Of a DNA stretch of 24,516 nucleotides, positions 6,612 to 23,912 are shown one piece after another. Each line of letters starts with the position of its first letter. Positions within the stretch are counted from its first letter, which is position 1. Origin of the DNA: a virus; the IMG/VR virus record IMGVR_UViG_3300029989_000148, positions 1 to 24,516 of that record, one strand, 5' to 3'. The position numbers and the translations under genes are program-made. Below the pieces are notes generated by a model that was given only the letters and a program-made list of their open reading frames with translations, did not search any database and was not told the origin of the DNA.

Positions 6612-7067
6612 ATGTCAATCTTATCATGGGGTAAACCAAAAATTGAAGTAGTTGTAACAACTACAGGTGCGATTCCCACAACACCCACCTGGGTGGTATT
6701 TCCAGTTGTTAAAGAGAACACCGCAAAATTGACAACCACGAAGGGGAATAAAACAGAGGCAACCGGTGAGGGTGGTGAGACCGTCGATGTCCGCTACCAG
6801 AAAAACAAATTTGCCTTTGAGTGTGAAGTTTTTGTGAAGAAAGGAGATTCAAAACCGATTGTAGACGCCGATGGACTGATCACAGCAAACTATTGCTGCC
6901 GTCTCACTCCTGAAGATGATACACTGGAAGGCTGGATCATGGAAAATACTTCTGTGAGTTGTGAAGAGAGCTGGACCAGTGCAGACGGGAAGATGTGGAA
7001 ATACACCTTTGAGGGCCTGAAACCGGCAACCGGCAATATCCTGAAACCTTACACTAAGGTAGCATAA
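6612..7067 (+). CDS. major tail tube protein
   Basis: This 151-aa protein starts MSILSWGKPKIEVVVTTTGA and is beta-rich. It contains KLTTTKGNKTEATGEGGE and the strand VRYQKNKFAFECEVFVKKG, and ends with WKYTFEGLKPATGN. The sheet-loop-sheet plan and the position before the chaperone pair are those of siphovirus tube subunits. Two adjacent Cys occur in NYCCRLTP. A strong hairpin follows the stop by 10 nt and may attenuate or protect this abundant transcript. Confidence 0.75.
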   Translation: MSILSWGKPKIEVVVTTTGAIPTTPTWVVFPVVKENTAKLTTTKGNKTEATGEGGETVDVRYQKNKFAFECEVFVKKGDSKPIVDADGLITANYCCRLTPEDDTLEGWIMENTSVSCEESWTSADGKMWKYTFEGLKPATGNILKPYTKVA

Positions 7068-7076
7068 CAGAACAGC

Positions 7077-7094
7077 AGCCCGGATCTCCGGGCT
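7077..7094 (+). terminator. stem-loop after the tail tube gene
   Basis: AGCCCGG (7077-7083), a 4-nt loop and CCGGGCT (7088-7094) form a perfect 7-bp GC-rich stem 10 nt after the tube stop codon. The following ACCGTTTTG is only weakly U-rich. It may therefore be a partial terminator or a 3'-end stabiliser or processing signal before the tRNA. Confidence 0.55.
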
Positions 7095-7111: not shown

Positions 7112-7184
7112 CGCGTTTTGGTGCAGTTGGCAACACGGCGGGCTCATACTCCGCAGACCACAGGTTCGAGTCCTGTAACCGCAA
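7112..7184 (+). tRNA. tRNA-Met(CAT), initiator-like, phage-encoded
   Basis: The 73-nt cloverleaf was folded by hand. The acceptor pairs CGCGTTT (7112-7118) with AACCGCA (7177-7183). The D-stem starts GTG and closes with CAC. The anticodon stem GCGGG/TCCGC surrounds loop CTCATAC with anticodon CAT at 7145-7147. The variable loop has 5 nt, the T-stem is ACAGG/CCTGT and the T-loop is TTCGAGT. Position 1 is C and position 72 is A, the mismatch diagnostic of bacterial initiator tRNA. The anticodon stem ends GGG opposite UCC, close to the initiator's three G-C pairs. Against this, 11:24 is U-A (elongator-like), and 5:68 is a T/C mismatch. No CCA is encoded. It lies between the tube and chaperone genes on the coding strand. 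Confidence 0.65.
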
Positions 7185-7202
7185 CAAATAAATTTTTAGA
7201 CA

Positions 7203-7715
7203 ATGGAAAAAACAATCGAACAGAAGGTAGCAGAGACAGTACTCCAGAGAACTACTGAAGTGCTAATCGGGGGTAAAACCTTTCATATATCTCCGCCAAG
7301 CACAGCCACACTGATCCGTGTTTCCGAACTGGTATCCTTGATGCCGGGAATTAAACTTGATCCAAAAAATATTGTCGTTGAGAGCCTCAGAGTGGCTAAG
7401 GACTGCAAAGTACTCGGGGAAATAACCGCGGTTATGGTTCTCGGCGAGGGTTTACCACACAGGGTACAGAAAATAAAAGACAAGGGCCTTCGTGGTTTCT
7501 TAGGGGGTACGACAGAAGAGGTTGTCGACCCCTACAAAGAACTTGCTCACGAGGTCCTGCATTCGTTAACGGCTAAACAGCTCAATGCCCTTATCATCCA
7601 GCTATTAAAACAGATGGAGATAGCTGATTTTTTCGGGCTTACCACTTCCCTCATAGAGGTAAATCTGCTACAAGCAACCCGGGAGGTGGAAATGACAGCA
7701 TCTGGGCCACAGTAG
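7203..7715 (+). CDS. tail assembly chaperone (G-type)
   Basis: This 170-aa protein lies between the tail tube and tape-measure genes, where the tail assembly chaperone is always found. The N-terminus carries a compact beta segment (TEVLIGGKTFHISPPSTATL) followed by helices. The C-terminal part contains KQLNALIIQLLKQMEIADFF and ends TASGPQ. Such proteins hold the tape measure soluble while tube subunits polymerise. The second form, GT, comes from a -1 frameshift; a perfect slippery heptamer lies at 7628-7634, at codons Phe143-Phe144. The shifted product would be about 233 aa. Confidence 0.75.
   Translation: MEKTIEQKVAETVLQRTTEVLIGGKTFHISPPSTATLIRVSELVSLMPGIKLDPKNIVVESLRVAKDCKVLGEITAVMVLGEGLPHRVQKIKDKGLRGFLGGTTEEVVDPYKELAHEVLHSLTAKQLNALIIQLLKQMEIADFFGLTTSLIEVNLLQATREVEMTASGPQ
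7628..7634 (+). other. probable -1 ribosomal frameshift site, T TTT TTC
   Basis: The heptamer TTTTTTC sits in the G frame as T|TTT|TTC, the X XXY YYZ form needed for simultaneous -1 slippage. The -1 frame is open without a stop from 7634 through the downstream chaperone ORF to 7903. Conserved-looking residues of the T part (NDSIWATVAG) lie upstream of its first ATG, so independent initiation would lose them. Confidence 0.6.
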
Positions 7716-7720
7716 CAGGA

Positions 7721-7903
7721 ATGGCAAAGGGGTACACCCTGACTTTTGACTACGTTCTTTATAAAATGAGTTATGCTAACCTGATCCTTTATAGTTCGGT
7801 TCTTCCGGGTTACGATGACGATAAGAAAGCAGAAGAGGAAGAAATAATAAATGCGGATGATCCGAAAAATGTAAAAAAGGTTAGAGAAGCATTATACAGC
7901 TAA
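7721..7903 (+). CDS. tail assembly chaperone T-part, expressed as a G-T frameshift fusion
   Basis: The frame is -1 relative to the G gene. The first ATG is at 7721 and gives 60 aa (MAKGYTLTFDYVLYKMSYAN at its start), but the frame is open back to the slippery site at 7628-7634. The T-specific segment of the fusion would therefore be about 89 aa. The segment around DYVLYKMSYANLILYSSVLP is typical of the second chaperone part in Bacteroidota phages, and the C-terminus is highly charged (DDDKKAEEEE). The T part recruits the tube subunit and G coats the tape measure. Translation from 7721 alone cannot be excluded. Confidence 0.68.
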   Translation: MAKGYTLTFDYVLYKMSYANLILYSSVLPGYDDDKKAEEEEIINADDPKNVKKVREALYS

Positions 7904-7918
7904 TTAATTTTCCTTTAG

Positions 7919-10900
7919 ATGAATACAGACGGCGGTAAAATATGGTATGCCTCAGGATTGGACACCTCCGATTTGCAAAATGATGCAAACAGGGCAAAAG
8001 CTATCTTTAAGGATATCGCCAATTCCGCTAAGGAGCAAGGAGAAAAAGCACAGGGCTCTTTCAGTGAGATAGGCAAAGGTATTACCATGATCGGTGGGAC
8101 TGCCGCTATCGGTATGCTGGGAAAAGAGATACTGGATGTCACCGCTAAGTTTGAAAAGTTTGGGATTGTCCTTCGCAACACACTGGGCGACACTAAAGGA
8201 ACTGAAGCCCTGGCCATGATTGCCAACTTTGCCGCCACTACGCCATTCCAACTTGATGAAGTCACCGGATCGTTTATAAAAATGGCCAACCAAGGTTTCG
8301 TTCCAACTCAGGAACAAATGATCAAACTTGGAGATTTGGCCAGCTCTACAGGTAAAAGTTTTGATCAATTGACAGAAGCCCTTCTGGATGCCCAGACCGG
8401 AGAGTTTGAAAGGCTTAAAGAGTTCGGGATCAAAGCGAGTGCGAACGGAGATAAAGTTACTTTCTCTTTCAAAGAACAAAAAACAACGGTAGAAAATACC
8501 AACGGCGCAATACAGGCCTATATCCTCAGTCTCGGCACACTGAAGGGGGTATCAGGCGCAAATGCTTTAATCTCCGCGAGCCTGACCGGGCAGATATCCA
8601 ATTTACAGGATAAGTTATCTATGATGTTCAATGATCTTGGTACTGCCAACAAGGGCATACTTTACGAGGTTGTTGGCGGGGCTGCCCAGCTGATAGATAA
8701 CTATAAGTTAGTAGGTGAGATGGTTGCTGCTTTAGTCACGGAGTACGGTATATATAAAGTGGCCGTGATGGCAGTAGCCTATCAGGAAAATGCCAACATG
8801 GTGGCTAAGGTACGTAATACGGCGATCGAAAAAGTCATGGCCTCGGATCTTTTGATGATTGAATCCCTGTCTGACTCTATGGCTGCCTCGCGCGGCGGGA
8901 AAGAAGTACTGATTGCAAATGCAAGAATAGCTGCAACGCAAAGGGTGATCGCTGCCGAAGAAGAGTTGGCCGTTGTATCAAAGGAATCTGCTCTGGCCAA
9001 TCCTTACGTTTTGGCAGCTATGGCCGTTGCCGCTCTTGGATTTGCAATTTACAAGGTAGTAACTTATCAAAGTGATCTGGATAAAGCTATTGAAAAGACA
9101 AATATACAGATTGAGAATGAGAGGGATAAAGCTGCGGGATTATTTGCGGAGCTTCAGCACACAGCTGAGGGTACCGACGAATGGAAAAAAGCAAAGCAAA
9201 GCATCCTTGACCAATACGGGAAGTACCTGACTTCTCAGGAACAGGAAGCCCTCGGGCTGAAAAACCTTGAAGAAATCAGAAAGAAGGTAAATCTCGGGAT
9301 CGAGGAGAGCATTGCCTTAAAGGTAAAAGAGCAAACCCTTGCAGGGATCAGCGACCAGTACAATGGTAAGATTACCAGCGCGACAAAGAAGATCGTTGAT
9401 ATTGTTAAGGATGAAAAAGGAGGTCAGCAGGCGGCTTATGTCAATCAGGACCTATCCGCCGCAGTTGGGGCGTACAAATATGCCGTAACCCCCGCCGAAA
9501 TTGAGGCAGCGGGTAAGAAACTTGACGAATTACAGAAACAAATATTTGCGGACACCGGATCAGGAAGGGCAAATGAACTGTTCAGGTGGCTGAGAGGTCA
9601 GATAGACGGGATGAAAGAGGCCACGGCTGAAGCCACAGCAGGTTTTAACCAATTCGCGCAGGCAAAAGCCGCATCCGCTTCAAAAGATAAAGCCCCGGAT
9701 CCGGTACTTACAACTTACGCTGCGCAAAGGAAATTACTTGAGGACAGAAAAAAAGCATTAGAGGCGCAGCTCGAGAAAGCGAAAGCTACCCCCGGGGTAG
9801 ATCCGACCAAAACGGTCACGGATATACAGGGTAAAATTGACGAGGTCAATAAACAGCTTGGGGTCAAAGATACTAAGGAGAAACTCACGCAGATTGAGAA
9901 GATCAAGAAAGCGATGGAGACTGCCCAGGGGCGTGAGCTTTATCTGCTCACACATAAGCTTGCGAAACTCGAAGAGATCAAAAAGATACAGGAAGAAATT
10001 GCAAGCGGAGCTATGATGAAGGGCGTAAACGATTCGGGGGCCACTGCATACGACCCGAACGCATTAGACGGTACTTCCGGGTTAAAGAGTAAACTCTCAA
10101 GTAAAGTAAGTTCCGGAATACTGAAGGAATTCACTGATTCGATAGATCCGCTTGCTAAAAAGCAGGACGCGAATAACCTAAAGGAGATTGACAGGGCAAA
10201 AGAAAAGATGCGCCTGTCCAATGATGCTTATCAAAAAGAGAAAGACCACCAGCAGTGGCTTTTCGATGATAAGAAGGACAAAGACGAGAAGGAAAAACAA
10301 CGGGTAGAGGAAAGGGCAAACGCGCTCTACCAAATTGCTGATGCTTTTAGCAGTATAGCGGGCAAAATCGGAGATTCCAACAAGCCTCTGGCCGACATGA
10401 TCAACGGAGTCGGGCAATTGGCAAATGAGATGGGCAATCTCGTTAAAGCCGGTGCTTTCTCAAAAGAGGGCATGAGTAAATCAAGTGCGATCTCTGCAAC
10501 TATCAGCGGGGCAACATCCCTCATTGGGTTGGTTGCTGGTCAAGCGGCGGAGAACAAACGCGTAATGAACGAATACTATGCCAGCATAATCAAACAACAA
10601 CAGGACTATAACCTTCTTCTTAATGATCAGCTCCTCATCAATTCAAGTATTAAAGGATCTGTTTTTATAAAGGATTATGAAGGCTCCCTGACTGATAGTA
10701 CAGCGGCCTATAACGACGCGCAAAAGAAATTAGCGGAGGAGCAAAAGAAGTTTTTGAGTTCCGAGGCGATAGTAGGTAAAAAGAGTGTTGTTAGTGGGGC
10801 AAATGTCTTATCAGGCGTTGCAGCCGGGGCAGCTGTAGGGGCCGGAGTTGGATCGATCGTGCCTGTGGTAGGGACTGTTGTTGGAGCTGCTATAGGAGCG

Positions 10901-11758
10901 GCTGTTGGTTTGTTTACAGGTTTATTTGCAAAAAAGAAAAAGGATGTTGTTGCTCCTCTTTTAGATACTTATCCGGATTTGATAAAAGCCAACGGCGAGT
11001 TCAATGCGGATCTGGCAAAAACACTGATTACAAATAACAAAGTGACTGATGCCACAAAGGCCACTTTGCAAAATATGATTGACTGGAAGGAAGCAGCGGA
11101 CAAAGCCACAGCACAGCTTAAATCTGTGATCAGTGACCTTACAGGAAGTTTAGGCGATGACCTTAGAAACTCTTTGGTAGATGCCTTTAAGGCTGGTACT
11201 GATGCCGCGGAGGCCTTCAAGGGATCGGTAAATAAAGTGCTTGAAAACATCATGTCAAACATGATTTTCAATAAAGCTTTTGAGGGGGCTTTCAAAACCC
11301 TCGAAGACGCGATGGCGGCCAGCTATGCCGTTGGCGGTGATCAAAGCTGGCTTGATGATTTTCAGAAGTTCTATTCCCAATCCCCTGAGCTGATCAAAAC
11401 CTTTAATCAGGGAATGTCAGACGCGCAAACAGCCGCTGCAGGAGCGGGGCTATCAATATTCAGCAGCACTAAAGCTGAGTCAACTCGAACAGCAACGACT
11501 ACGGGGATAACTTCTCTGTCGCAAGAAACCGGTAACGAGATGAACGGGCGTTTTACAGTGATTCAGGGGCACACGTTCAGACTTGCTGAAGGAATGGACA
11601 TACTCAGGGCAAACAGTGCACAAACGCTCAAATACCTTGCAGGAATTGAGGCAAATACTGATTACTGTAAAAGGCTTGAAGCGATAGACGGGAACATAAA
11701 AAAGGTTAGTGAGGGGATCGATATAATCACATTAAAAGGGATAACCTTAAAGCAATGA
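7919..11758 (+). CDS. tail tape measure protein
   Basis: At 1279 aa this is the longest coding frame in the tail block before the fibres. It lies directly after the chaperones. The N-terminal ~200 residues form the family's conserved region (AAIGMLGKEILDVTAKFEKF, then LRNTLGDTKGTEALAMIANF). A hydrophobic segment near residue 365 (YVLAAMAVAALGFAIYKVV) and a glycine-zipper segment near 958-1003 (AAGAAVGAGVGSIVPVVG, then VVGAAIGAAVGLFTGLFA) are likely membrane-inserting parts used in DNA ejection. Long Lys/Glu-rich coiled coils lie between about 380 and 800. It sets tail length and is threaded inside the tube. Its end overlaps the next ATG (ATGA). Confidence 0.9.
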   Translation: MNTDGGKIWYASGLDTSDLQNDANRAKAIFKDIANSAKEQGEKAQGSFSEIGKGITMIGGTAAIGMLGKEILDVTAKFEKFGIVLRNTLGDTKGTEALAMIANFAATTPFQLDEVTGSFIKMANQGFVPTQEQMIKLGDLASSTGKSFDQLTEALLDAQTGEFERLKEFGIKASANGDKVTFSFKEQKTTVENTNGAIQAYILSLGTLKGVSGANALISASLTGQISNLQDKLSMMFNDLGTANKGILYEVVGGAAQLIDNYKLVGEMVAALVTEYGIYKVAVMAVAYQENANMVAKVRNTAIEKVMASDLLMIESLSDSMAASRGGKEVLIANARIAATQRVIAAEEELAVVSKESALANPYVLAAMAVAALGFAIYKVVTYQSDLDKAIEKTNIQIENERDKAAGLFAELQHTAEGTDEWKKAKQSILDQYGKYLTSQEQEALGLKNLEEIRKKVNLGIEESIALKVKEQTLAGISDQYNGKITSATKKIVDIVKDEKGGQQAAYVNQDLSAAVGAYKYAVTPAEIEAAGKKLDELQKQIFADTGSGRANELFRWLRGQIDGMKEATAEATAGFNQFAQAKAASASKDKAPDPVLTTYAAQRKLLEDRKKALEAQLEKAKATPGVDPTKTVTDIQGKIDEVNKQLGVKDTKEKLTQIEKIKKAMETAQGRELYLLTHKLAKLEEIKKIQEEIASGAMMKGVNDSGATAYDPNALDGTSGLKSKLSSKVSSGILKEFTDSIDPLAKKQDANNLKEIDRAKEKMRLSNDAYQKEKDHQQWLFDDKKDKDEKEKQRVEERANALYQIADAFSSIAGKIGDSNKPLADMINGVGQLANEMGNLVKAGAFSKEGMSKSSAISATISGATSLIGLVAGQAAENKRVMNEYYASIIKQQQDYNLLLNDQLLINSSIKGSVFIKDYEGSLTDSTAAYNDAQKKLAEEQKKFLSSEAIVGKKSVVSGANVLSGVAAGAAVGAGVGSIVPVVGTVVGAAIGAAVGLFTGLFAKKKKDVVAPLLDTYPDLIKANGEFNADLAKTLITNNKVTDATKATLQNMIDWKEAADKATAQLKSVISDLTGSLGDDLRNSLVDAFKAGTDAAEAFKGSVNKVLENIMSNMIFNKAFEGAFKTLEDAMAASYAVGGDQSWLDDFQKFYSQSPELIKTFNQGMSDAQTAAAGAGLSIFSSTKAESTRTATTTGITSLSQETGNEMNGRFTVIQGHTFRLAEGMDILRANSAQTLKYLAGIEANTDYCKRLEAIDGNIKKVSEGIDIITLKGITLKQ

Positions 11759-12930: not shown

Positions 12931-14913
12931 ATGACAGAAGAAATTAAGATTGTTATAGACGAGACGATAGAGGAAGTTACAATTCAACTTCAAGAGATCG
13001 AACAACCCGTACATGTTTCTATAACCGAGACTGCGGGACAGCGGGGGCGCAATTTGCTATTCTCTGATCTAACTGAAGAGGAAAAATTGCTTATAAAAGG
13101 TGAGAAAGGAGATCCTTTTCGTTTCTCAGACTTTACACCGGAGCAGTTGGCTGCTCTTAAGGGGGTGGCGTTCCGTTTTTCTGATTTTACCACGGAACAA
13201 CTTGCCTCTCTCTCTTTTCATTTCTCAGACTTTACACCGGAGCAGTTGGCAGCTCTTAAGGGAGAGGCTTTTCATTTCTCAGACTTTACACCGGAGCAAC
13301 TTGCAGCGCTAAAAGGGGCAGCTTTCAAATTTGAAGACTTCACAATCGAACAACTGGAAGCATTACAGGGTAGTAAAGGGGACATGGGGGAGGCTTTTCA
13401 TTTCTCAGACTTTACGCCGGAACAGCTGGCTATGCTGAAAGGAGAAAAAGGAGATGCGGGCGATCTATCCGAGGAGTCACTTGCAATACTGAATGGCATT
13501 GTTGATCAATGTGAAGCAAACGAACTTAACTCCCGGGCAAATGCCGAATTCATTTTATCCCTTCTAAGGGATGCAGAACAGGAAACCTTTTATAACGTGC
13601 TGGCTATTTTAGATTCCCGGAAAATCGCTCCGGTTGGCTGGAGTGTCCCTACAACAGGAGATTATGATATACTGTTTACCCGGGTTAAGCAAGGTAATAT
13701 CACACCGGGAGCTATTCAGGGAGGATACTTAAAATCATCCAAGTCATCAGAATGGGATCCTGCGGATCAAATATACCAAAACACTTACGGATTTGACGCT
13801 GCCGGTACGGGTATAAGGACCGAGCAGGGGGCATTTTTATATCGTAAAACAATGACCTATCTGGCTACAATATCTGAAGGCTCGGTAGGTATTTACTGCT
13901 ATGAGGTCAATGCAAATTATGTCAATACCTTTCTGCACGAGGTAGATAAAAAGGCTGGCGTTTCGGTTCGTCTTGTCAAAGACAGCACAAATCTTTTGCA
14001 CGGGCAGGTAGGTGCAGCCGTCATGACAGACGGGTCGGTAGTGCCGACTATTTGTATCGGGACGCAGGAGTGGATGATGGTGAACCTGTCAACTAAAACG
14101 TATCGTGACGGAACTGAAATACCGACTGTGACTGGTACGGAAGCCTGGGCGGCGCTTGCTTCAGGCGCAAAGTGCACATACAACAATGAAGAGACTGCAA
14201 GCGAGAAAGGATTGATTAAAAAGTCTGAGGACTTAGCGGCTTTCTATGCGCAACAAGCCTTAACTGCATACACTGAAATATTGACCTTTAAAGCAACCAA
14301 GGGGGATAAAGGGGACACTGGAGATACAGGGGCAACACTTGAGCTGCAGATATCGGGTGGTTACATCCAGTACCGGCCTGTTGGAACTTCAACGTGGATA
14401 AACTTGCTTAATACCTCTACACTTGTTGGAGACAAGGGCGACAAAGGTGACACAGGAGAGAAGGGAGATACCGGAGCAGCGGGGGCAACCCTTGAATTAC
14501 AGGTTTCAAGCGGATACATCCAATACCGTCCGGTTGGAGGGTTGACCTGGACGAACCTAATTGCAGTCAATTCCCTTGTTGGTGCAAAAGGAGATACCGG
14601 GGCAACGGGTAAAGGTATAGCATCAACTTCCTATGATGCGGGTACAGGAATTTTAACACTGACTTTCACCGATGCAACAACATATCAAACAAGCGATTTG
14701 AGGGATACGGCGGTAGAGGTTAATATTAACTTCCTTGATCTTACCCCCTATGTGTATAACGCGCCGAAGGCGTTGAAATTTACCTCACAGGAAAGCGAAG
14801 GAACAGCCGCGACGCTGAGTACAGCATTGAATACCAACCTTGCGAGGTATGCAAAACTCACAGTCACGCCCTCAGTCGTCGGATTGATAACCCTTAAAGG
14901 TATCCTGCTATGA
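12931..14913 (+). CDS. repeat-rich tail fibre with collagen-like and FISUMP segments
   Basis: This 660-aa mosaic starts with about 60 residues of acidic head. Six copies of an SDFTPEQLAALKG-type repeat follow (about residues 63-171). A beta domain comes next (about 225-330), then a FISUMP-like domain with CIGTQEWMMVNLSTKTYRDG (about 370-425), which is typical of Bacteroidota surface proteins. After it come two collagen-like GDKGDTG tracts separating duplicated ATLELQ...YIQYRPVG modules (about 457-562), and a short C-terminal domain. Collagen-like Gly-X-Y tracts form trimeric stalks, so a trimeric fibre is likely. It is co-transcribed with the BspA-like gene, whose ATG overlaps its stop. It probably takes part in host-surface binding; the receptor is unknown. 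Confidence 0.75.
   Translation: MTEEIKIVIDETIEEVTIQLQEIEQPVHVSITETAGQRGRNLLFSDLTEEEKLLIKGEKGDPFRFSDFTPEQLAALKGVAFRFSDFTTEQLASLSFHFSDFTPEQLAALKGEAFHFSDFTPEQLAALKGAAFKFEDFTIEQLEALQGSKGDMGEAFHFSDFTPEQLAMLKGEKGDAGDLSEESLAILNGIVDQCEANELNSRANAEFILSLLRDAEQETFYNVLAILDSRKIAPVGWSVPTTGDYDILFTRVKQGNITPGAIQGGYLKSSKSSEWDPADQIYQNTYGFDAAGTGIRTEQGAFLYRKTMTYLATISEGSVGIYCYEVNANYVNTFLHEVDKKAGVSVRLVKDSTNLLHGQVGAAVMTDGSVVPTICIGTQEWMMVNLSTKTYRDGTEIPTVTGTEAWAALASGAKCTYNNEETASEKGLIKKSEDLAAFYAQQALTAYTEILTFKATKGDKGDTGDTGATLELQISGGYIQYRPVGTSTWINLLNTSTLVGDKGDKGDTGEKGDTGAAGATLELQVSSGYIQYRPVGGLTWTNLIAVNSLVGAKGDTGATGKGIASTSYDAGTGILTLTFTDATTYQTSDLRDTAVEVNINFLDLTPYVYNAPKALKFTSQESEGTAATLSTALNTNLARYAKLTVTPSVVGLITLKGILL
13117..13443 (+). 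repeat. six in-frame SDFTPEQLAALKG-type repeats
   Basis: Units begin near 13117, 13171, 13216, 13270, 13324 and 13396. Four are closely similar at DNA level (core TTTCTCAGACTTTAC) and two are diverged. Unit lengths are 45-72 nt, always in multiples of 3. They encode a short F-x-F-S-D-F-T-P-E-Q-L-A-A-L-K-G helix-turn unit that links to collagen-like KGD triplets. Confidence 0.85.
14299..14616 (+). repeat. duplicated collagen-like linker and beta module
   Basis: Two copies of a module of about 50 residues occur in tandem. Each has Gly-X-Y triplets (GDKGDTGDTGA, then GDKGDTGEKGDTGAAGA) followed by ATLELQ...YIQYRPVG...LVG. A third collagen tract (GAKGDTGATGKG) closes the array. Confidence 0.8.
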
Positions 14914-16259
14914 GAGAGTATATAACATCAAGAGCGATCGGGGGTACATCGGGATGGGCACCTCCAGCAGACTGGCAGGATATTTCTAACTGTGCTGATA
15001 ATGAAATACTAATGCTTGCAACGGACGGAGCGGCAGGTGTTGCATTTACGGTTGGAATGTCAAGTGGAACGTACTCGATCGACTGGGGGGATGGCACTGT
15101 TGAGACCGGGGTAGCAAATAACGCTGTAAAGTCTCATTCATACAACGGCATAGGAGGCGTGTGGTGTTCTTTAGGTTATAACACATACAAAATAAGGGTT
15201 TACGGGGCTGCAAATAATATCTCGACTTTCAAGTTTCAAAAATCTGTGACTACCTCATTTTATCAGGCGGTACCTGTACTGTCAATAAGTATAGGTGCGA
15301 GATATATTACCGATTATTCTGCAACTTTTTACTCCGCGTCGTACAGGGCTATTGCACTAAGGTACTGTAAAATCAGCAGCTTTCAGGCTTGTAGCACTGC
15401 CTTGAACATGTTTAACGGGTGTTACTCTTTAACCCGTATTGACCTTCCAGGCAGCTGGGGCAATGTGACTACAACGAGCTATATGTTTTCAGGCTGCAGC
15501 GCGTTGTTCTATTTGACCCTTCCGTCCAGTTGGGGCAATGTAACTGATGTTACATACATGCTTAACGGTTGTTACTCGCTGCCCGCTTTGACCCTTCCGA
15601 GCAGCTGGGGCAATGTAACTCAAACAGGGAGGATGCTACAGAATTGTTACTCACTGCCTGCATTGATATTGCCAAGCAGCTGGGGCAATGTAGCAAACAT
15701 AGATGCAATGTTTAGCGGGGACTATTCTTTGCTTGCTTTGACCCTTCCATCCAGCTGGGGAAGCGTGAACTCAACGAATTACCTTCTTAATAATTGCTAT
15801 TCATTAGCGGTATTAACCCTTCCGGGGAGCTGGGGCAACATCGATACAGCAGGTAACATGCTAAGTGGGTGTGTGTCGCTCAGGCTTGTTAATAATTTGC
15901 AATATTTTGGCAGCCAAAGCCTTCAATGCGATTTTTCAAGTTTTATGACAGGATGTACTTTGAACAATCAAGCTATCGAAATAGCTGCCAAATTGGCGAT
16001 TTTCGGAATGAATGGATCATCCGGGGCTGGTATTATAAAAACTACTTCTATACGCCTCACAAACCCGGGATCAACCTTTACGGGGTCAAGCCCCCAAATC
16101 AACATTTCATACACATCATTGAATGCGGCTGCTCTTGACCTGCTTTTCGGAGACCTGCCCACACTGACTGGTAAATACATAAATATAACAGGATGCCCCG
16201 GTGCTTCAACTTGTACCCGGTCGATAGCAACAGCAAAAGGATGGTCAATAACCGGATAA
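14910..16259 (+). CDS. BspA/DUF285-like repeat tail protein
   Basis: This 449-aa protein starts within the previous stop codon. The N-terminus has a WxxP-like segment, then a PKD-type strand pattern with YSIDWGDGTVETG (about residues 54-66). Residues about 167-327 hold six to seven 25-residue repeats of the form M-L-x-G-C-Y-S-L-P-x-L-T-L-P-S-S-W-G-N-V. This is the BspA/DUF285 leucine-rich-like repeat found on surface proteins of many bacteria. A C-terminal region with Cys pairs follows. The repeats suggest a curved adhesion surface on the tail tip. One Cys per unit in most repeats could stabilise it. There is no signal peptide, in agreement with a virion protein. Confidence 0.72.
   Translation: MREYITSRAIGGTSGWAPPADWQDISNCADNEILMLATDGAAGVAFTVGMSSGTYSIDWGDGTVETGVANNAVKSHSYNGIGGVWCSLGYNTYKIRVYGAANNISTFKFQKSVTTSFYQAVPVLSISIGARYITDYSATFYSASYRAIALRYCKISSFQACSTALNMFNGCYSLTRIDLPGSWGNVTTTSYMFSGCSALFYLTLPSSWGNVTDVTYMLNGCYSLPALTLPSSWGNVTQTGRMLQNCYSLPALILPSSWGNVANIDAMFSGDYSLLALTLPSSWGSVNSTNYLLNNCYSLAVLTLPGSWGNIDTAGNMLSGCVSLRLVNNLQYFGSQSLQCDFSSFMTGCTLNNQAIEIAAKLAIFGMNGSSGAGIIKTTSIRLTNPGSTFTGSSPQINISYTSLNAAALDLLFGDLPTLTGKYINITGCPGASTCTRSIATAKGWSITG
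15408..15890 (+). repeat. 75-bp tandem repeats of the BspA-like gene
   Basis: Six to seven head-to-tail units of 75 nt share cores such as CTTCCGAGCAGCTGGGGCAA. They are all in frame and diverged mostly in the linker between units. Close DNA similarity makes unit gain or loss by recombination plausible. Confidence 0.85.
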
Positions 16260-22321: not shown

Positions 22322-23665
22322 TTAGGTTAGTTTTGGTGCTGGCTCGGAAACCCGTTTGCGTTTATGCATAGCGGGTTTTTTCTCTTTCTTTGGTTCAGTC
22401 ACGGATTCAATTCTCAGTTTCACAAGATTCAGAACCTTTCTGTTGGCTGCATCAATCAGAGAATAGCTTTTGTCTATGTACCGGTCCGTGACTTTCATAT
22501 CCTCGTCAACGTGGTTCAGGGCTGTATGTACGGTGTATTTATTGACTTTTGCCTGGTTTGTAGCAATAGTCGCCCAACTGTGCCGAGCAGCATAAAATTC
22601 AAGATCCTCAATTTTTATTGAATCAAGTTTTCCAATTTTCTTTAATCCTTTATTAATTGCAGTATTAAACGTATCCGCGTTTGCGTAGTGCTGATAAAAA
22701 TTGAATACTCTTTTGCCAGTTTTGTCCCTGTACTTCTCAACCAGAGGTTTTATTTCAGGCTCTATTCTAATACTGATTTCTGCCTGGTCCTCTCTTCTGT
22801 TTTTTGTCTTTGTCCTGTTGTAAGTGATTCGTCCGGCATTTAAACAATCACAATTAAACAGGTCCACGGTATTCATGCCAATCAAACCAAACGATAGAAT
22901 AAATAAATCCTTTGCCAGATTGAACCGATTCAGACCGTCCTGTGGTACTAAAGTATAAGGCAAAGCTGCAATGGCCCTTATATGTTCGACCGACTCAGCC
23001 CTTTTTCTTACTGCCGGAGGTTTTGGTACTTTAAACTTAGCAAATGGAGATAGCGGAATATTTATTATTCCATTATCCTCATCATTGAATTCGTCCTTTG
23101 CCATGTTGTGGAGTGCTCTGAGATTAGATAGGTAGAGCGAAACCGCCCGCTCACCTTTTTTCCTGTTCGGCTTCTCCGGCCTACCTTCGATATATTCGGC
23201 AAAGCTCTTTACAAATCGTCCGGATATCTCTGATACATCAAGACCGCTTAGACAAAATTTAGCCAATACCCTGAGCATTACATCGTAGGTTTTGGCATTT
23301 CCTGTATTTCCTTTTGCCTGAAGTTCCTTTACCTTATCCTCTCCATATTTGAGAAAATCAAGCCGAAAAACGTCTCCTTTGACTTTGTAATTTTCCAGAT
23401 AGTTCAGCAATTTGTCGGCTGACAGGTCCCTAATTTGTTCACCAAGTTCGTCACAAGCCTTTCTGTAATTTTTGATTATAATATCAAGGTCATCAATAAG
23501 GGATTGATTTTTGATTTTGTAGCCCTTGGTTAAATCGTCTTTTGTAACAAAGCGGGATGTTGCAATGTGTCTTTTTAAACGATTGTGGGTAATTCGGATC
23601 TTGACATTAAATGTGCCATCCTCTTTTTTATGATGTTTATAAACTACCGCTTTGAAAGTTGCCAT
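22322..23665 (-). CDS. tyrosine recombinase, phage integrase
   Basis: The ATG at 23665 (MATFKAVVYKHHKK) is preferred over one 45 nt upstream because Bacteroidota integrases typically begin with this basic beta segment, giving 447 aa. The N-terminal arm-binding and SAM-like core-binding domains span about residues 1-210 and the catalytic domain about 225-410. Visible catalytic elements are the beta-hairpin Lys in RTKTKNR (286/288), R361 in ARHSWAT, H385 in ALNHVDED and Y396 in TDRYI. The usual first Arg (GLR) is Asn265 in LIGMNTVDL, and the His three residues before R361 is Tyr; both variants are seen in Bacteroidota relatives. It converges on the lysis genes with a 3-nt gap. It lies 176 bp from tRNA-Arg, the likely attachment site. 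Confidence 0.9.
   Translation of the reverse strand: MATFKAVVYKHHKKEDGTFNVKIRITHNRLKRHIATSRFVTKDDLTKGYKIKNQSLIDDLDIIIKNYRKACDELGEQIRDLSADKLLNYLENYKVKGDVFRLDFLKYGEDKVKELQAKGNTGNAKTYDVMLRVLAKFCLSGLDVSEISGRFVKSFAEYIEGRPEKPNRKKGERAVSLYLSNLRALHNMAKDEFNDEDNGIINIPLSPFAKFKVPKPPAVRKRAESVEHIRAIAALPYTLVPQDGLNRFNLAKDLFILSFGLIGMNTVDLFNCDCLNAGRITYNRTKTKNRREDQAEISIRIEPEIKPLVEKYRDKTGKRVFNFYQHYANADTFNTAINKGLKKIGKLDSIKIEDLEFYAARHSWATIATNQAKVNKYTVHTALNHVDEDMKVTDRYIDKSYSLIDAANRKVLNLVKLRIESVTEPKKEKKPAMHKRKRVSEPAPKLT
22348..22381 (+). terminator. candidate terminator of the rightward late operon
   Basis: AAACCCG (22348-22354) pairs with CGGGTTT (22372-22378) across a 17-nt loop, followed by TTT for six U in the tract. 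It lies about 30 nt past the spanin-like stop, inside the 3' end of the convergent integrase gene. It would stop late transcription before antisense reading of the integrase. Confidence 0.55.
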
Positions 23666-23746
23666 GCCTGAACCACTTTTGAAGAACAATGTACCGTAAA
23701 TGTAGTTCAAAAGTTCGGAAAGTAGATAGCAGTATCAAATATTTAT

Positions 23747-23766
23747 GCCGAAACAATCCGAATTAA
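23747..23766. repeat. near-direct repeat, copy 1 (of 23920-23940)
   Basis: GCCGAAACAATCCGAATTAA here resembles the segment at 23920-23940 with two substitutions and one extra A. The two copies flank the tRNA-Arg. Copy 1 does not form the hairpin that copy 2 does. Confidence 0.5.
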
Positions 23767-23802
23767 TATGCTTTTTGGGCGCACTTTACTCCATATAAAC
23801 AC

Positions 23803-23839
23803 AATACCCTGAACACTTTACGCATCCAGGGTATTTTTT
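23803..23839. terminator. hairpin beside the tRNA 3' end, canonical on the plus strand
   Basis: AATACCCTG (23803-23811) pairs with CAGGGTATT (23827-23835) over a 15-nt loop, followed on the plus strand by a U tract to 23839. Read from the tRNA (minus strand) the hairpin starts a few bases after the tRNA end and is followed by TGTGTTT, so it may serve both directions. Confidence 0.6.
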
Positions 23840-23840
23840 G

Positions 23841-23912
23841 TAGCCCCACCGCGACTCGAACGCGAATTTAAAGTTTAGGAAACTTCCGTTCTATCCCTTG
23901 AACTATGAGGCC
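23841..23912 (-). tRNA. tRNA-Arg(CCT), probable prophage attachment target
   Basis: The minus strand folds into a full cloverleaf: acceptor GGCCTCA/TGGGGCT with two G-U pairs, D-stem GTTC/GAAC, and anticodon stem GAAGT/ACTTT around loop TTCCTAA (anticodon CCT, reading AGG). The T-stem is TCGCG/CGCGG with T-loop TTCGAGT. The discriminator is A and no CCA is encoded. Its 3' end points to the integrase, the usual arrangement when a prophage recombines in a tRNA 3' half. The left att copy lies outside the window, so the core cannot be confirmed. Confidence 0.85.

Follow-up and report, generated by a model that had tools for sequence, protein, structure and literature searches.

A tRNA-derived element at a tail-gene junction of Bacteroidota phages as a candidate signal for mRNA processing

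A tRNA-like element is confirmed at positions 7112–7184 of a 24,516-base virus fragment from IMG/VR (the whole analysed stretch, hereafter the window), where it separates a tail-tube-like gene from a tail assembly chaperone-like gene. The same junction is occupied in most relatives, with retention of the half of the tRNA that is read by maturation enzymes and repeated loss of the half that decodes. The best reading of these data, which we hold with moderate confidence, is that the element is a tRNA-derived processing signal splitting the tail-tube mRNA from the chaperone/tape-measure mRNA. Slightly less firmly, we propose that host tRNA genes, both the initiator and several elongators, have repeatedly been taken up at the tail-tube/chaperone junction by tailed Bacteroidota phages and pared down to an acceptor/T-arm signal through which the host tRNA maturation enzymes would set tail-protein stoichiometry with no involvement in decoding.

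The element and its setting in the tail operon

The preliminary description had proposed an initiator-type tRNA-Met embedded in the tail operon, and the tRNA callers agreed with it: ARAGORN calls a tRNA-Met (cat) at 7112–7185 on the + strand, and Rfam family RF00005 matches 7112–7184 at 50.5 bits (gathering score, 29; E = 2.7e-8). The location was borne out as well. The element, positions 1–73 in tRNA numbering, follows the tail-tube-like ORF (6612–7067, + strand, phrog_17745) and precedes by 18 nt the start of the chaperone-like ORF (7203–7715, + strand, phrog_12247), with the annotated tail length tape measure gene (7919–11758, + strand) downstream. The labels 'tail tube' and 'chaperone' are inferences that rest on gene order, the annotation of the two PHROGs giving no function; the tube protein has a single, unannotated match in phage records, and the chaperone protein has no match in them. 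Between the tail-tube stop and the element lies a hairpin, AGCCCGGATCTCCGGGCT (7077–7094, + strand), followed by a weak U-run, which is a possible mRNA 3'-end stabiliser or attenuator; the window carries both structures. Besides the chaperone-like ORF, with its end at 7715, there is a second ORF in the -1 frame that extends to 7903, and relatives have similar pairs. Such a pair would be expected for a G/GT-type programmed frameshift; no slippery site was identified within 7203–7903.

The 5' strand of the acceptor stem, CGCGUUU (7112–7118, + strand), forms G2-C71, C3-G70, G4-C69, U6-A67 and U7-A66 and leaves C1×A72 and U5×C68 unpaired, so that the acceptor/T stack, 12 bp in relatives, has two unpaired acceptor positions in the window. 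The D arm (7121–7136, + strand) contains G10-C25, U11-A24, G12-C23 and the mismatch C13×A22. In the anticodon arm, GCGGG-CUCAUAC-UCCGC (7138–7154, + strand; ARAGORN and sequence), the pairs G27-C43, C28-G42, G29-C41, G30-C40 and G31·U39 close the loop CUCAUAC, which holds CAU at 7145–7147 and C38. The T arm ACAGG-UUCGAGU-CCUGU and the acceptor 3' strand AACCGCA (7160–7183, + strand) are the parts that relatives conserve. The 3' end reads A73, C74, A75, A76; C74 (7185, + strand) is encoded in the genome, and CCA itself is not. All the features listed earlier are present, namely the C1/A72 mismatch, the CAT anticodon, GGG facing UCC (29:41, 30:40 and 31·39), the 5:68 mismatch and U11:A24, and to these C13×A22 and C38 can be added. 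The energy fold of the element is no better than that of shuffles (z = +1.1) and unremarkable by itself; hence, the case for the element rests on the tRNA models and on conservation.

Descent from an initiator tRNA, as previously suggested, is supported at the sequence level by C1×A72, by CAU and by closer identity to initiators than to CAU elongator/Ile2-type tRNAs: 48–55 of 75 aligned positions are identical to five Bacteroidota initiator tRNAs (64–73%), against 42–47 of 76–77 for four host tRNAs of the CAU elongator/Ile2 type. Compared with these Bacteroidota fMet genes, the window element has U11:A24 in place of A11:U24, C38 in place of A38, two extra stem mismatches where the initiators are paired, and G31·U39 within the G:C triplet 29-31:39-41, one pair of which is thus lost. 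This triplet is present in all five host initiators and in only 3 of the 26 CAU elements found at this junction, whereas the unpaired 1:72 position is kept in 24 of the 26. The CAU elements also keep the five anticodon-stem pairs (26/26), U33 (25/26) and, less strictly, a purine at 37 (19/26). The suggestion that an extra initiator tRNA could favour late translation found no support, given that the slot is conserved and decoding is not; a functional initiator as the main reading was rejected on the loss of the triplet and on the non-decoding relatives. As for a degenerate gene, which had been left open, degenerate features do exist, but the acceptor and T stems are held by compensatory change, as in a gene kept for another role.

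Elsewhere in the window, ARAGORN calls a tRNA-Arg (cct) at 23840–23912. Within 22322–23912, a tyrosine integrase gene adjoins this tRNA, and beyond it stands an aminotransferase gene that is probably a host gene, a layout consistent with prophage integration at tRNA-Arg. Other genes encode a PAPS-reductase-family protein beside the head genes (956–1921, - strand), a tail-fibre-like protein containing repeats of FSDFTPEQLAALKG and collagen-like GDKGD motifs (12931–14913) and, in the tail fibre region, a leucine-rich-repeat protein of the BspA type (14910–16259).

Occupancy of the junction and conservation of the acceptor/T half in relatives

Loci of relatives came from scans of IMG/VR and GTDB in which the proteins of the tube and chaperone genes served as queries, and belong to Bacteroidota phages and prophages, including Paludibacter, Azobacteroides, Polaribacter, Alistipes, Capnocytophaga and others; the chaperones of the relatives were too diverse in alignment for a scan. 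Removal of duplicates left 134 junctions, reduced to 128 by k-mer clustering. An earlier loose detector matched 195 of 3158 control windows (6%) and was replaced by a strict core detector, defined by a 5-bp T stem, a TTCRA loop and the acceptor. In the comparison with related prophages that had been proposed, about 81 of the 128 distinct junctions between the tail-tube gene and the next gene contain a tRNA-like element (46 called by ARAGORN, 28 found by the detector only and 7 by eye), and the 46 ARAGORN calls lie nearly always in the gap and on the coding strand. The strict detector fired at 66 of 128 junctions, compared with 5 of 1968 other windows on the + strand and 7 of 2264 on the - strand of the same loci, controls that rule out a chance cloverleaf. 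High-scoring matches outside the junction were inspected singly and corresponded to an ordinary tRNA-Glu, the tRNA-Arg of the window, a copy of the junction element in locus L085 and chance-looking matches. L085 had been scored as element-free owing to a misassigned tube ORF and carries an element of the type seen in L066; the detector match in L037 was judged spurious and discarded from the count.

In most loci the element ends about 12–50 nt before the start of the next gene and hence sits in its short 5' leader. Occupancy extends to another tube family, since L016, whose tube lacks any PHROG match, and its relative L321 have a CAU element before the chaperone. The element is not indispensable, because about 36% of the junctions, including that of the closest relative, L001, are free of it. 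Among 40 whole virus records, most of those no longer than about 55 kb contain a single Rfam tRNA match or lack one altogether. Two further observations concern individual loci: L008 contains tandem tRNA-like elements at the junction (709–777 and 783–854), the first degenerate (38.7 bits) and the second with CAU, and in L005 (5436–5696) the tail-tube protein has a C-terminal extension that by eye resembles a BACON/Ig-like domain.

Decoding capacity has been lost in many members. ARAGORN reads CAU in 26 clusters, and the remaining anticodons correspond to Thr, Gln, Gly, Arg, Phe, Val, Asn, Ile and Sec or are unreadable. The 7-nt anticodon loop with U33, present in the window and in most CAU elements, is absent from many members at the same site: tetraloops replace it in L071 (GCAA) and L079 (GAGA), L084 has an extended stem with GGAA, L009 a 14-nt loop, and big insertions expand the arm in L123, L251, L232, L097 and L099. 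The anticodon arm is missing altogether from L051, almost nothing separates the acceptor from the T arm in L236, and L115 consists of a continuous 12-bp acceptor/T minihelix with its T loop. On the tube-protein tree, at least 42 changes among the states CAU, other element and none are required, and CAU and non-decoding forms are adjacent in supported clades (L224/L230 with L232, L008 with L052, and L204 with L208/L210). Some elements, for instance that of L039, could still be working tRNAs.

The acceptor/T half shows the opposite trend. Across 26 elements rejected by ARAGORN, the 12 acceptor and T pairs are paired in 96.8% of cases against 63.6% for shuffles and 45–51% for slid partners, values in which acceptor pairing is overstated by the choice of the best 5' partner and T-stem pairing, fixed in register, is thresholded, a selection that the control windows answer for frequency only. 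In the same elements both sides have changed in 11 of the 12 pairs, two-sided changes amount to 104 cells versus 25 expected, and the TTCRA loop is intact. Thermodynamic folding is informative for L115 (z = -2.9) and L009 (z = -2.3) and uninformative for most elements. Beyond the pairing, C74 occurs in 62 of 66 phage elements (27/29 non-ARAGORN and 35/37 ARAGORN-called) over a background of 22% C, and in 50 of 50 tRNA genes examined in two Bacteroidota host genomes, where 75 and 76 vary. The elements thus obey the host rule for tRNA gene 3' ends even when unable to decode. T at position -1 was found in 24/37 ARAGORN-called and 12/29 other elements, and in 15/26 and 15/24 tRNA genes of the two hosts; A at position 76 in 24/29 non-ARAGORN elements versus 9/26 and 14/24 host genes. 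Pseudogene decay was rejected on the persistence of the acceptor/T pairing, the T loop and C74.

Junctions devoid of the element tend to have hairpins instead. A strong hairpin is found at 32 of 46 element-free against 23 of 75 element junctions (p = 3.5e-5), and a terminator-like site at 22 of 46 against 12 of 75, an association confounded by kinship and by the greater length examined where the element is absent (110 nt). Such an excess is expected if either device ends or protects the tube mRNA. Under phylogeny control, with 7 independent pairs, the association was not significant, and a universal alternation of element and terminator hairpin, although suggestive, was dropped once kinship was allowed for.

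A proposed processing signal and its alternatives

The tube protein of tailed phages is needed in many copies, and the chaperone and tape-measure proteins in few. RNase P reads the acceptor/T half of its substrates, which is the half conserved in the elements (see also PMC12710915). Because the conserved half is that of RNase P and the junction is one between many-copy and few-copy products, we infer that the element serves as a cleavage signal between two mRNAs. In such a scheme, the nascent tail-operon transcript would fold into the half-tRNA formed by acceptor stem and T arm, with host RNase P cutting at the 5' end of the element and a host 3' tRNA-maturation nuclease perhaps making a second cut after position 73/74. 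The cuts would part the abundant tail-tube mRNA from the chaperone/tape-measure mRNA, and the new 3' end of the former would often be guarded by a hairpin just upstream. The element would thus act as 'tRNA punctuation' in a phage operon, with an initiator-derived copy in the window phage and, in relatives, copies from other tRNAs or trimmed non-decoding ones.

The position of the element in the 5' leader of the next gene would equally suit a tRNA-shaped structure that is never cut, ending or protecting the tail-tube mRNA as a roadblock or stabiliser, or controlling chaperone translation, perhaps by binding a tRNA-recognising protein. The tendency of element-free junctions to terminator-like hairpins suggests exchangeable structural roles and fits this possibility too. 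We nevertheless consider it unlikely, since a mere block needs neither C74 nor the T-loop sequence, both kept as in host tRNA genes, and bacterial RNase P is expected to act on such a fold. Less probable still is a working phage tRNA, an initiator in the window, that enhances late translation or stands in for a host tRNA cleaved by defence systems, the non-decoding copies being decaying pseudogenes. ARAGORN and Rfam do accept the element as a tRNA, and phage tRNAs can resist tRNA-cutting defences (PMC10264068). The processing model leaves unexplained the A at position 76 and the 1:72 mismatch of 24/26 CAU elements; the latter does not follow from processing alone and counts against the processing reading, and together with U33 in 25/26 it speaks for a working tRNA. 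On the other side, the initiator G:C triplet survives in only 3/26 CAU elements, other tRNA types fill the slot, the element is usually the sole Rfam tRNA match in records of up to about 55 kb, and non-decoding copies, unlike pseudogenes, retain acceptor/T pairing, T loop and C74.

The elements might also mark a point of recombination or insertion that joins modules or mobile DNA and is kept by repeated exchange, given that tRNA genes are common attachment sites and that extra genes occur at some junctions (L003, L037 and L107). This we regard as very improbable, for the element has no integrase attached to it here, that of the window adjoining the tRNA-Arg at 23840–23912, and the compensatory changes imply selection on the RNA.

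Comparison with known systems

Should the processing reading be correct, phages would have converted tRNA genes into signals for RNA processing alone, on many occasions and starting from different tRNAs, at a junction that needs a strong drop in expression. This would explain some lone or odd phage tRNA genes not accounted for by codon usage, and would caution that a tRNA call within a phage structural operon need not denote a decoding tRNA. It would also offer a graded set of naturally occurring minimal RNase P substrates for study in Bacteroidota, with the full tRNA at one end and the 12-bp minihelix at the other. Precedents exist for tRNA punctuation, for the release of tRNA-like RNAs by tRNA enzymes and for RNase P cleavage within mRNAs; a literature search that lacked most subscription journals returned no earlier account of tRNAs repeatedly captured at a single junction of a phage operon to act as a signal that does not decode.

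In mitochondrial tRNA punctuation, tRNA folds separating coding regions signal the release of the flanking mRNAs, as proposed here. Mitochondrial punctuation tRNAs also decode, whereas many phage copies cannot, and the phage elements belong to the late operon of bacteriophages, where cleavage is a proposal. RNase P makes the 3' end of MALAT1. MALAT1/mascRNA and menRNA resemble the proposed element in being non-decoding tRNA-like folds that enzymes free from a longer transcript (PMC9777231), but their setting is that of mammalian nuclear lncRNAs and their sequence is unrelated to the phage element. Host RNase P likewise processes non-tRNA transcripts, phage RNAs included, such as the his operon, M3 RNA and C4 antisense RNA (PMC11143913); unlike the phage elements, these sites are not tRNA genes repeatedly recruited to one operon junction. 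Viral tRNA mimicry recognised by RNase P is exemplified by the 3' tRNA-like structures of TYMV and TMV (PMC11143913), which lie at the 3' ends of RNA-virus genomes and have a pseudoknotted acceptor, whereas the element described here is internal to a DNA-phage mRNA and has an ordinary acceptor stem. Finally, phage-encoded tRNAs are likewise tRNA genes in phage genomes, and some of the present elements are similarly intact; those tRNAs usually decode and lie away from structural genes, while the elements reported here occupy a fixed tail-gene junction and are often non-decoding.
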